NCBI GenBank assembly: GCA_902791965.1
Contig: CADAXZ010000001.1
Span: 1 to 59,612 of the forward strand
Direction of reading: 5' to 3'
Origin: Candidatus Proelusimicrobium bovinum
GTDB taxonomy: Bacteria > Elusimicrobiota > Elusimicrobia > Elusimicrobiales > Elusimicrobiaceae
DNA: 59,612 bases
Made by a program: the position numbers and the translations under genes. Within the stretch, counting starts at the first letter, position 1. Each line of letters starts with the position of its first letter. Positions 9,494 through 15,853 of this stretch are shown in pieces. Below the pieces are notes generated by a model that was not told the origin of the DNA, did no database searches, and saw only the letters and a list, made by a program, of their open reading frames with translations.

Positions 9494-11894
<2,401 letters not shown>

Positions 11895-12063
11895 AGTTTT
11901 ATCCTTAAAGTTTAAGTTGTATCCGTATATAAATTTTATCAAATAAAAGTTTTTAAAGCACCGTCTATTTTACAAATATAAAATTTAATCCGTAAAAGCA
12001 ACTTAAAATTAAAATTTTACCGATACTTTATATACCTGAATAAAAAGTAATTTTAAAACCTTT

Positions 12064-13164
12064 TTATTGCTGCTGCAATTTTGCGGCATCTCTCACTTTC
12101 ATAGCAAAATAAGGCTTTTTTCCGTTTTCTTCTATAAACATTACAAACGGCCCGTCAGCATTAAAATAGCGGGGGCTTTGACGGTTAGGGGAAACGGCAA
12201 TTCCTTTTCCCATAACTATAACCGCTTCCGATTTTAATTTTACGCCTGTTTCGTTCATTTTAAATTCTATTGTTTCTATTGCTTTTGTTATTACCAAGTC
12301 CGTTGCCTTTATCTCTTTATCATAAAATTCTGAAAATTCCCTGTCGGTTTTATAATCCATAAGCGGAACTTTTAAAGTATCTTTTTTGCTTAAAATTCTT
12401 TCTCCTTCATAAGTTTTTGATTTGTTTAACATATCATTGTATAAAACATCCAAAGTTTTATTTTCATCATTGCGGTAAATATATACTTTATCGCCTTGTT
12501 TTGTATTTAATACAACGGCAAAATTCTGCGCATTATCATAAAATAAAACTTCTACCGTAGAACGCAATTTGTAAGCGGCATTTTCTTCCATTCCAAAATA
12601 ATTTATAAGTTTACTGCTTCCTTTAAACTCATCTTTGCCTAACTTTTCAAACTTTTCTAAAAATTCAAATTCTTTTTTTAGCATTGCATAAAGCACATAT
12701 TTGCGCAATTGCGGTGTTGAATTCCATTCTATTTGGTCCAAAATATCACTTGTTTCGTTAAATTTCTTTTTTATTGCCCTTTTCATTTCCGCTTTTAAAG
12801 CAGGGACAGCCTCTCCCCATTTTTTATAATAAGAACTTTGCGATAATTCATCCTCCGTAAAGGTCTGCTTATTTAAGTTTTCGGCAGTAATTGATTTATA
12901 ATTTACAAATTCAACCGGTGCTTTTAAAAGTTCGTTTATTAAATCATTCCATACTAACTGAAAAGTTGCTACCCATACTTGGTTTTTTGCGTTTGAAACG
13001 CTATTTATTGCAGGTAAAATTTCTAAATCTTCCGATGACAGGTTTAAGATTATATTTTCTGCATCATCTGCTTGTTGTGTTGCTTTAAAAATATTTTTTT
13101 GTTTACAAACAATAAAAATAATTATAATAAATGCAATTATTAAACCGTAAAGTAAAAGTTTCAT
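12064..13164 (-). CDS. Membrane-anchored serpin-like protein
   Basis: I recognise no close family, but the last 80 residues align by eye with the C-terminal half of serpins: a strand LVITKAIETIEFKMNE (about 283-298) matches the serpin s5A/hinge entry, a short stretch with AVIVM stands where the reactive loop begins, and FNADGPFVMFIEEN...PYFAMKV matches the conserved serpin FNADHPF...I..N...LFMGKV end. The hinge reads GVKLKSEAV, with two Lys where inhibitory serpins have small residues, so inhibition by loop insertion is doubtful. An N-terminal hydrophobic helix (residues 3-20) has no good lipobox, suggesting a membrane anchor with the domain outside. The N-terminal half is poorly conserved. 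A clear AGGAG precedes the ATG. Single gene with hairpin-bounded flanks. Confidence 0.5.
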   Translation of the reverse strand: MKLLLYGLIIAFIIIIFIVCKQKNIFKATQQADDAENIILNLSSEDLEILPAINSVSNAKNQVWVATFQLVWNDLINELLKAPVEFVNYKSITAENLNKQTFTEDELSQSSYYKKWGEAVPALKAEMKRAIKKKFNETSDILDQIEWNSTPQLRKYVLYAMLKKEFEFLEKFEKLGKDEFKGSSKLINYFGMEENAAYKLRSTVEVLFYDNAQNFAVVLNTKQGDKVYIYRNDENKTLDVLYNDMLNKSKTYEGERILSKKDTLKVPLMDYKTDREFSEFYDKEIKATDLVITKAIETIEFKMNETGVKLKSEAVIVMGKGIAVSPNRQSPRYFNADGPFVMFIEENGKKPYFAMKVRDAAKLQQQ

Positions 13165-13324: not shown

Positions 13325-15853
13325 TTATTTTTCGGTATCTTCCGGTTTTTCTTCTTCCTTTACAACCGGTGCAACGCGTGCGATTTTATCATTGTCATCT
13401 AATCTTACAAGCCTGACACCTTGGGCATTTCTGCCGACGGAACGGATTTCTTCGCAGCGGATTCTTATAGCCATACCCTTTTCGGTAATGACCATAAGGT
13501 CTTTGCTTTCGTCAACAAGTTTTATGCCTACTACGCCGCCGTTTCTCTGCGTAGTTTTAATAGTGATAACGCCGCTTCCGCCCCTGTTTTGTGTGCGGTA
13601 TTCTTCAAAGGCGGTGCGTTTACCATATCCGTTTTCACATACGGAAAGCACATCCGGCTGTTCGCCTTCTCTGTCGGCCTGTTCCATACCTACGACATTA
13701 TCGCCCGAAGCAAGCCTTATTCCTCTTACGCCTTTTGCCGTTCTGCCCATAGAACGCACTTGGTCTTCCCTAAACCTTATGGATTTACCTTGCTTGGTAG
13801 CAATGATAATATCACTCTTGCCGTGCGTTTCCTGTACGGATACCAATACATCGCCTTCTTCAAGGCCGATAGCAATAATACCTGTTCTTCTGATATGGGC
13901 AAACTCGGAGAGTTCAACTCTCTTTATCGTACCCATTCTGGTACACATAGTAAGGTAAGTTTCGCCGGAGTTTTTCGGGTCAAAATCCCTGAAGGCAACG
14001 GCGGAAGTTACCTTTTCTTCCCCTGTAATTTGCAGTAAGTTTACTATCGCTTTGCCTTTGGACATTCTTGTCCCTTCCGGTATTTCAAAGGCTTTAAGGG
14101 CAAACACTCTGCCTCTGTTTGTAAACATTAAGATTGTAGCATGGCTGGAAGTTACAAACAGATGTTCTATAAAGTCTTCTTCTTTAGTTTTTCCGCCGAT
14201 AATACCTTTGCCGCCTCTGTTCTGGGAGCGGTAAGTATCAAGAGGGATTCTCTTTGCATAGCCGTCATTGGAAAGAGTAATGACAACATCTTGTTCTTCA
14301 ATAAGGTCCTCAATAGAAAAATCAGAAATTTCATTGGCAATTTCTGTTCTTCTCGGGTCGGCATAATCCTTTTTCATTTTGGTAAGTTCATCAACGATAA
14401 TATTTAAAATGCGTTGCGCCGAACCCAAAATATCCTGAAGTTCCTTAATCAAAGCCATAAGGTCTTTTTGTTCCTGCTCAATGGCTATGGAAGAAAGTTG
14501 CGTCAACTGGTGCAATCTCATATCCAAAATAGCCTGTGTTTGTGCTTCGCTTAATTTAAAGCGGTTCATTAAATTAAGTTTCGCTTCAGAGACATCTTTT
14601 GAATTTCTGATTATGGAAACAACTTCATCCATATTGGCAATAGCAACAAGCAAACCTTCCAAAATATGTTCGCGTTTTAAGGCTTTATTAAGGTCAAAGC
14701 GGGTGCGGTTTGTTATAACTTCCTGACGGTGTTTTATATATTGGCGCATAACTTCTTTAATGCCCAAAATGCGCGGTTTGCCGTCAACAATAGCAAGCAT
14801 ATTTACGCTAAAAGAAGTTTGCAGTTGGGTATGTTTAAATAACTGGTTTAAAACAACCTGTCCGTTGCCGTCGCGTTTAAGTTCTATGACAAGGCGCATA
14901 CCTCTGCGGTCGGATTCATCGCGTATATCGGAAATTTCCGTAATTTTTTTGTCTTTTACCAAACCGACAATAGTTTCTATAAGGTTTGTTTTATTTACCT
15001 GATAAGGTATTTCCGTAACGATAATAGCCTGCCTGCCGCCTTTCATTTCCTCTATTTCGGCTTTGGCTTGTACTTTTACAGAACCTTTACCGGTTTCAAA
15101 ATAATCAAAAACACCTTTTGTGCCTCTTAAAATACCGCCCGTAGGGAAATCCGGTCCTTTTACAATCTGCATCATTTCTCTTGTGCTGATTGCCGGATTT
15201 TTGATTAAAGCAATAATGCCGTCGCAAATTTCGCCAAGATTATGCGTAGGGATATTTGTTGCCATACCTACGGCTATACCGTTTGAACCGTTTACCAAAA
15301 GTTGCGGCATCTTTGCCGGCAATACTGAAGGCTCTTGTAAAGAACCGTCATAGTTAGGTATAAATTTAACGGTATCTTTATCTATATCTTCTAAAAGTTC
15401 GTTTGCTATGGCTTGAAGGCGGACTTCGGTATACCTCATAGCAGCGGCGCTGTCGCCGTCAATAGAACCAAAGTTCCCCTGCCCGTTTACAAGCATATTT
15501 CTCATAGAGAAATCCTGCGCCATACGCACTAAAGCATCATAAACGGCAGTATCACCGTGCGGGTGATATTTACCTAACACATCACCGACGACACGCGCCG
15601 ATTTCTTAAAAGGCTGATTATATTTAAGGCCCATTTCCTGCATAGCAAAAAGTATGCGGCGGTGTACCGGTTTTAAACCGTCCCTTACATCCGGTAAAGC
15701 ACGCCCTACAATTACGCTCATTGCGTAATCTATGTAGGATTTTTTCATTTCCTCGCCTACATCTCTCTGCTTTATATTGCCGAATAAATCAACGCTTTTT
15801 ACTTCCGGCGCAGGTTGCTGATTTTGGGGATTATTGTTAATATTGTCTGTCAT
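13325..15853 (-). CDS. gyrA: DNA gyrase subunit A
   Basis: Breakage-reunion subunit of gyrase, introducing negative supercoils with GyrB. The catalytic Tyr is Y141 in [10 protein letters not shown]. The quinolone-determining segment reads [10 protein letters not shown] at about 98-107, so Thr (T102) stands at the E. coli Ser83 position and Asp at position 87. The C-terminal half (about 520-820) holds the beta-pinwheel blades with the GyrA-box motif QNRGGKG and its later partner QNRGGSG. Length 842. AAGGAG precedes the ATG. It follows gyrB by 14 bases. Confidence 0.98.

Follow-up and report, generated by a model that had tools for sequence, protein, structure and literature searches.

A divergent bacterial protein with a predicted serpin fold and a rewritten, conserved hinge

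Analysis of a 59,612-nucleotide stretch of DNA from Candidatus Proelusimicrobium bovinum (hereafter the window) established that one of its open reading frames encodes a protein whose C-terminal part is homologous to serpins, that the inhibitory serpin hinge has been replaced in this protein and its relatives by a conserved amphipathic strand, GVKLKSEA, and that the stretch from helix A to helix F has lost some 60 residues. A serpin fold is predicted over residues 51–364, and on the modelled structure the protein is a new serpin variant that has the fold but neither the inhibitory hinge nor the full helix set; no description of the family was found in a literature search confined to published papers readable without subscription. 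Serpins are known for their metastable native state. The reading favoured here, in which about as much belief as doubt is placed, is that the protein would form a pre-relaxed, non-trapping serpin-fold scaffold presenting a variable loop.

The open reading frame is a real one: it lies on the minus strand at 12064–13164, begins with ATG and encodes 366 residues, the plus strand across the same interval being crowded with stops. From their sequences, the genes on either side are presumably gyrA (13325–15853) and nusB (11475–11942), separated from it by gaps of 160 and 121 bases, respectively. The features referred to below, each with the evidence on which it was placed, are as follows.

12064..13164, minus strand: whole open reading frame of the divergent serpin-fold protein (predicted fold), 366 residues; stop codon at 12064–12066
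13060..13164, minus strand: residues 1–35, hydrophobic N-terminus, a putative signal peptide, lipoprotein signal or membrane anchor (sequence; AlphaFold2 helix 2–35)
12925..12984, minus strand: residues 61–80, helix A region, the most conserved in the family (WVATFQLVWND) (AlphaFold2; conservation ranking)
12805..12924, minus strand: residues 81–120, holding just a 7-residue helix and a 7-residue strand (AlphaFold2 secondary structure; sequence lengths; global hhalign)
12730..12804, minus strand: residues 121–145, helix F equivalent, register inferred (AlphaFold2; global hhalign)
12661..12699, minus strand: residues 156–168, strand 3A equivalent, with invariant Y159, M161, K163 and K164 (alignment; AlphaFold2; hhalign)
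12256..12285, minus strand: residues 294–303, strand 5A (AlphaFold2)
12214..12246, minus strand: residues 307–317, rewritten hinge P15–P5, GVKLKSEAVIV, modelled as strand 4A (AlphaFold2; alignments)
12172..12213, minus strand: residues 318–331, reactive-centre-loop equivalent, predicted disordered (AlphaFold2; conservation)
12094..12171, minus strand: residues 332–357, C-terminal serpin signature RYFNADGPFVMFI...PYFAMKV, strands 4B and 5B (PF00079; hhalign; AlphaFold2)

The protein opens with a hydrophobic stretch of roughly 25 residues, after which a segment at approximately residues 33–44 is predicted to be disordered (pLDDT below 50 at 33–35 and 37–44 in the AlphaFold2 model); the protein is probably exported, export signals having been judged by a crude pattern.

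The serpin relation is visible solely through profiles and the structure model. The Pfam profile PF00079 matched the protein over profile positions 276–367 of 370; the score of 24.2 bits (E 1.4e-5 within the genome that it comes from) falls short of the curated cut-off, which is 27 bits. hmmscan of the protein alone returned no Serpin match at E ≤ 10, and single-protein searches of Pfam, NCBIfam and the PDB (phmmer) yielded nothing useful. Scattered weak Serpin matches apart, neither Pfam nor NCBIfam has a model that recognises the family; Serpin is the commonest Pfam match among 62 relatives (14 of them, best E 2.4e-6). Among 146 sampled genomes of an order taken as Gastranaerophilales, a Serpin match at E ≤ 0.001 was recorded in 40, two family members exceeded the PF00079 cut-off with 31.9 and 28.6 bits, and all ten of the best-scoring loci encode the family of the window protein. 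When the family profile was compared with 18 true serpins by hhalign, an E of 7.5e-6 and a score of 50.7 were obtained, whereas 60 column shuffles reached at most 23.5 and the reversed alignment 14.3. Removal of rows of at least 86% identity left 61 of 80 loci in the family alignment. The serpin pattern that a prior reading made from the sequence alone had noticed at the C-terminus was thereby borne out, although at the level of sequence the match comprises the C-terminal part only, the N-terminal register depending on the AlphaFold2 model. The same reading saw no other sign of a serpin in this bacterium, a claim contradicted by a 70% identical paralogue in the same genome and by serpins above the Pfam cut-off in 56 of the 294 genomes sampled from the phylum. 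Nor is the protein isolated, a homologue search having revealed a large family of relatives.

The opposite case, that the protein is not a serpin and that its C-terminal likeness is convergent or due to chance, could appeal to the empty hmmscan result and to a profile search of the PDB in which proteasome alpha subunits ranked above PAI-1 (E 0.0081 versus 1.6). The proteasome match was rejected: it covers 52 residues of a different fold, and with a larger alignment its E rose to 1.1, at which point proteasome alpha subunits and PAI-1 stood approximately level. With two family members above the Pfam cut-off, a profile score more than any shuffle produced, and serpins over most of the length as the best 50 structural matches, this case is largely refuted and carries hardly any weight.

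The AlphaFold2 model of the window protein, computed with 62 sequences (pLDDT 88.0, pTM 0.79), consists of one compact domain from about residue 51 to residue 364 with a serpin fold. At E ≤ 0.001 Foldseek retrieved 263 chains of the PDB, the top one with 6.8e-12 and the best 50 of the 263 all being serpins, and the best VIA-align match was cleaved vaspin, with Z 19.2 and an rmsd of 3.9 over 271 residues. Structure prediction, which had been named beforehand as a check, thus returned a serpin fold, and neither a lack of sheet A nor a better match to another fold was encountered. As to the earlier suggestion of an altered serpin fold facing the periplasm, the predicted fold and the altered hinge both support it, and export is probable.

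In the model, helix A occupies residues 66–80 and the helix F equivalent residues 121–135, with only a helix (92–98) and a strand (112–118) between them; the interval amounts to 58 residues, compared with about 120 in the canonical serpin L046. In textbook serpins hB, hC, hD, hE, s1A and s2A sit between helices A and F, and the brevity of the interval indicates that several of these elements have been lost or reduced, the full set of hB, hC, hD and hE with s1A and s2A being absent from the model.

Hinge residues were counted in 80 relatives and, for comparison, in 30 canonical serpins from the phylum. After an invariant Gly at P15, positions P14 to P8 of the family hold V (62 of 80), K (65), L (64), K (76), S (76), E (80) and A (79), the canonical counterparts being T (30 of 30), E (29), A (30), A (29), A (30), A (28) and T (30). 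The window protein itself has G, V, K, L, K, S and E from P15 to P9, so that GVKLKSEA stands in place of the inhibitory P17–P9 consensus ExGTEAAAA. An atypical hinge had been proposed from the sequence, and altered it is, but it has not decayed: the new form is strongly conserved across the 80 relatives, and in conservation the hinge window takes 35th place out of 358. Once a serpin loop is inserted, odd hinge positions face the solvent and even ones point under sheet A. The Lys residues earlier taken as the anomaly are indeed present, at P13 and P11, but these are odd positions, the first of which holds Glu in 29 of the 30 canonical serpins, and since they face the solvent they are by themselves no argument against insertion. 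Charged residues are wholly absent from P14, P12, P10, P8 and P6 throughout the 80 members, and P13, P11 and P9 are Lys, Arg or Glu in 233 of 240 cells. On the aligned sequences, the inward position that truly deviates is P12, with Leu instead of Ala; Leu or Val occurs there in 77 of 80 members. Five divergent relatives (in G008, G015, G239 and twice in G136) hold V at P14, L at P12 and A at P8 constant, with P13, P11 and P9 varying. The shutter pair N186/H334, in what we take to be alpha-1-antitrypsin numbering, apparently corresponds to Y159 and E297, with the register drawn from the profile alignment.

The loop that follows the hinge (residues 318–331) has the lowest conservation of any segment save the N-terminus. 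When the relative L071 (GVKLKSEAVIIVGLTCMP) was compared with the true serpin L023 (GTEAAAATAIIMVLTCMP), the loops aligned without a gap and the reactive centres proved alike (IIVGLTCMP and IIMVLTCMP); the canonical spacing from hinge to P1 is kept, and 71 of 80 relatives have their first Pro between +16 and +18. The ungapped match suggests that an ancestral inhibitory loop had one stretch replaced and its spacing retained; an alternative hhalign alignment places a 4-residue gap in the hinge and pairs SEA with TEA.

Gap-free spacing of the kind found in inhibitory serpins counts against a dead, pre-relaxed loop, because such a loop need not keep it. It is instead what would be expected of the main rival explanation, a serious one though clearly less probable than an even chance, according to which the protein is a working but altered inhibitor whose exposed loop is cut and then inserts, aimed at a host or neighbour protease favouring a small P1 residue (Ser, Thr, Ala or Cys), with inward hinge positions that are merely uncharged. 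The similar reactive centres of L071 and L023 and the variability of loop 318–331 speak for such an inhibitor, but the absence of the ExGTEAAAA hinge, the apparent change of the shutter pair and the loss of some 60 N-terminal residues speak against it. Export in gut bacteria would also suit an inhibitor, the characterised serpins of such bacteria being described in passages of PMC8233489 as inhibiting host proteases, but the Leu or Val at P12 would not, an Ala to Thr change at P12 being stated in part of PMC3268027 to abolish inhibition by antithrombin.

The AlphaFold2 model bears on whether the hinge is inserted. A strand at 307–317 is separated from s5A (294–303) by a three-residue turn, the 10-residue blocks there having a pLDDT of 97 and 86, and the hinge was on that ground read as an inserted strand 4A, the strand pairing being taken from secondary structure and from the rank of the structural matches. 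The matches of highest Z were mostly loop-cleaved serpins, 10 of the best 14 being titled 'cleaved', and structures titled native stood lower among the matches listed (VIA-align Z of 16.1 for 1jmj, 15.6 for 2h4r and 15.5 for 1t1f). According to part of PMC11226102, AlphaFold gives serpins the native conformation, with the loop not inserted, even when experiment contradicts it, and a model with an inserted hinge, being contrary to that bias, carries some weight. The canonical-serpin control failed, however: L135, modelled with only three sequences, reached a pLDDT of 44 and likewise had a strand (362–372) after s5A, so that the pipeline may insert hinges in sheet A regardless. A canonical hinge modelled into the sheet is a further point for an altered inhibitor, and the conformation of the window protein is consequently one that we infer.

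What nevertheless favours the pre-relaxed scaffold is that the hinge is conserved and amphipathic, that P12 is Leu and that the helices are trimmed. On this proposal the hinge of the uncut protein would already lie in sheet A as strand 4A, a latent-like, relaxed arrangement that would preclude a spring-loaded protease trap; the product would be a rigid, protease-resistant scaffold outside the inner membrane, on which the variable loop 318–331 might be displayed as bait, ligand or partner-binding site. The further proposal that in a whole bacterial order the relaxed state has become the native one, with the loop a permanent strand of sheet A, the sheet-opening helices trimmed and a stable extracytoplasmic scaffold spread horizontally among gut phyla, is put forward tentatively and commands more doubt than belief; to our knowledge, and as far as the literature search extended, no earlier serpin lineage has settled in a relaxed native state.

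That the protein is a non-inhibitory serpin whose loop is exposed and rigid, for example a chaperone or carrier of the periplasm comparable to HSP47, ovalbumin or the hormone-binding globulins, appears improbable. The occurrence of the family in 159 of 192 genomes of one order (see below) looks more like housekeeping than warfare, and animal non-inhibitory serpins with diverged hinges do exist (parts of PMC6379291 and PMC10090351), but a conserved, amphipathic hinge with uncharged inward positions argues for insertion, the AlphaFold2 model has the hinge inserted, and the gene neighbourhood offered no sign of a chaperone or carrier.

Comparison with known serpins places the family as follows. 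Canonical Elusimicrobiota serpins (PF00079; L046 and L023), of which examples with an inhibitory hinge are mentioned in part of PMC8233489, share with it the fold, the order of the C-terminal strands, the ungapped loop register and similar reactive centres, and many are likewise exported; unlike them, the family lacks some 60 residues in the interval from helix A to helix F, has the hinge GVKLKSEA rather than GTEAAAAT, and has, by inferred register, replaced the canonical N/F-K-G/W of strand 3A, and the window protein does not reach the Pfam cut-off. Solved structures of latent or cleaved serpins (tengpin 2pef, PAI-1 3eox and vaspin 5ei0; Z 16.9 to 19.2) resemble the AlphaFold2 model in having the hinge inside sheet A as s4A, but they enter that state by cleavage or by leaving a metastable native form, whereas the family sequence seems built for it. 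Ovalbumin, HSP47, CBG, TBG and maspin similarly combine a serpin fold with the lack of a full inhibitory hinge consensus; the hinges of non-inhibitory serpins, described as less conserved in part of PMC6379291, have in animals diverged to differ from one another, whereas the bacterial family keeps one new hinge throughout. Siropins, the Bifidobacterium serpin and miropin are secreted serpins of host-associated bacteria, as the family members probably are, but they inhibit host proteases, and the family, known here from sequence and model, differs from them in its hinge.

A conserved fold with a rewritten hinge and lost helices allows it to be asked which parts of the serpin fold serve metastability alone. 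Whether prokaryotic serpins have non-inhibitory functions was, according to part of a 2023 paper (PMC10090351), not known, and the family makes that question testable.

A scan of genome contigs confirmed 191 relatives, of which 80 were kept; these come mostly from Candidatus Gastranaerophilales, rumen and gut isolates, and Elusimicrobiaceae, with three labelled Alphaproteobacteria. The family was found in 159 of 192 sampled genomes of the order of G305 (taken as Gastranaerophilales; G305 included) and is close to a core gene there, one for which no Pfam or NCBIfam model recognises most members. Within the Elusimicrobiota the family is rare. Of 90 Elusimicrobiaceae genomes 12 were matched, one of them (G019) through a weakly matching canonical serpin, and an even draw from Elusimicrobiota gave 8 of 247. 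The paralogue in the window's own genome (contig 34, 13928–15079) scores 19.2 bits against PF00079; it has a lipobox-like VMGC in its N-terminus, and the open reading frame downstream of it is presumably ribosomal-protein-L10-like. Very divergent members occur in another family of the phylum (L054:546–2845 in G136, where they stand in tandem, and L053 in G239), with changed odd hinge positions (GVILESYA). Two family genes also form a tandem pair in Cyanobacteria bacterium UBA1221 (L055:6744–8966), with 3 bases between them.

Gain of the gene at the gyrA–nusB site fits best with the available comparisons. Its GC content (31%) and that of the paralogue (30%) compare with 42% in gyrA and 41% in ligA, nusB also being low at 33%. 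In the three close species G007, G011 and G001, whose GyrA is 91–92% identical, gyrA is directly followed by nusB and ligA with no serpin-fold gene between them, and none of the 17 other gyrA-bearing genomes of the genus has the gene within 1.5 kb of gyrA, although in the other 14 of the 17 the gyrA flank contains no nusB, through rearrangement or a contig end. In an unrooted quick tree, ten Elusimicrobiaceae rows including the window nest with 13 mostly rumen rows (SH-aLRT 99); the three alphaproteobacterial rows fall elsewhere, and long branches were flagged. The likely source is Gastranaerophilales-type bacteria, from which the family has apparently passed sideways to other gut bacteria; it would thus be at home in gut Gastranaerophilales and horizontally acquired by this Elusimicrobiaceae lineage. 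Searches for possible carriers gave 93 pattern stretches in viral contigs, none confirmed as a family relative, and no relative among PLSDB plasmids.

No general neighbour gene was apparent among 81 family loci, and nothing there pointed to a function. The commonest neighbours were a gene that we take to be RadA-like (25 loci, at +1 in 15) and an upstream DUF167 gene (19). A Penicillinase_R (BlaI/MecI-type) gene together with an open reading frame of about 123 residues lies upstream of the family gene at 20 of the 81 loci, the Penicillinase_R gene sitting two genes upstream. These loci form one subgroup (L078, L084, L085 and 17 others) in which the three genes stand in a tight row on the same strand, possibly an operon under envelope-stress control.

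Serpins apparently encoded by phages, for which no paper was found in the literature search, were encountered in passing. Two IMG/VR contigs carry serpin genes with a canonical hinge (L137:2983–4065 and L136:2959–3972) and are bacteriophage-like, with RNA_ligase family neighbours and an AAA ATPase, and tblastn located two further serpins in the unannotated human faecal phage records MT835510 (36% identity) and MT835777 (30% identity).
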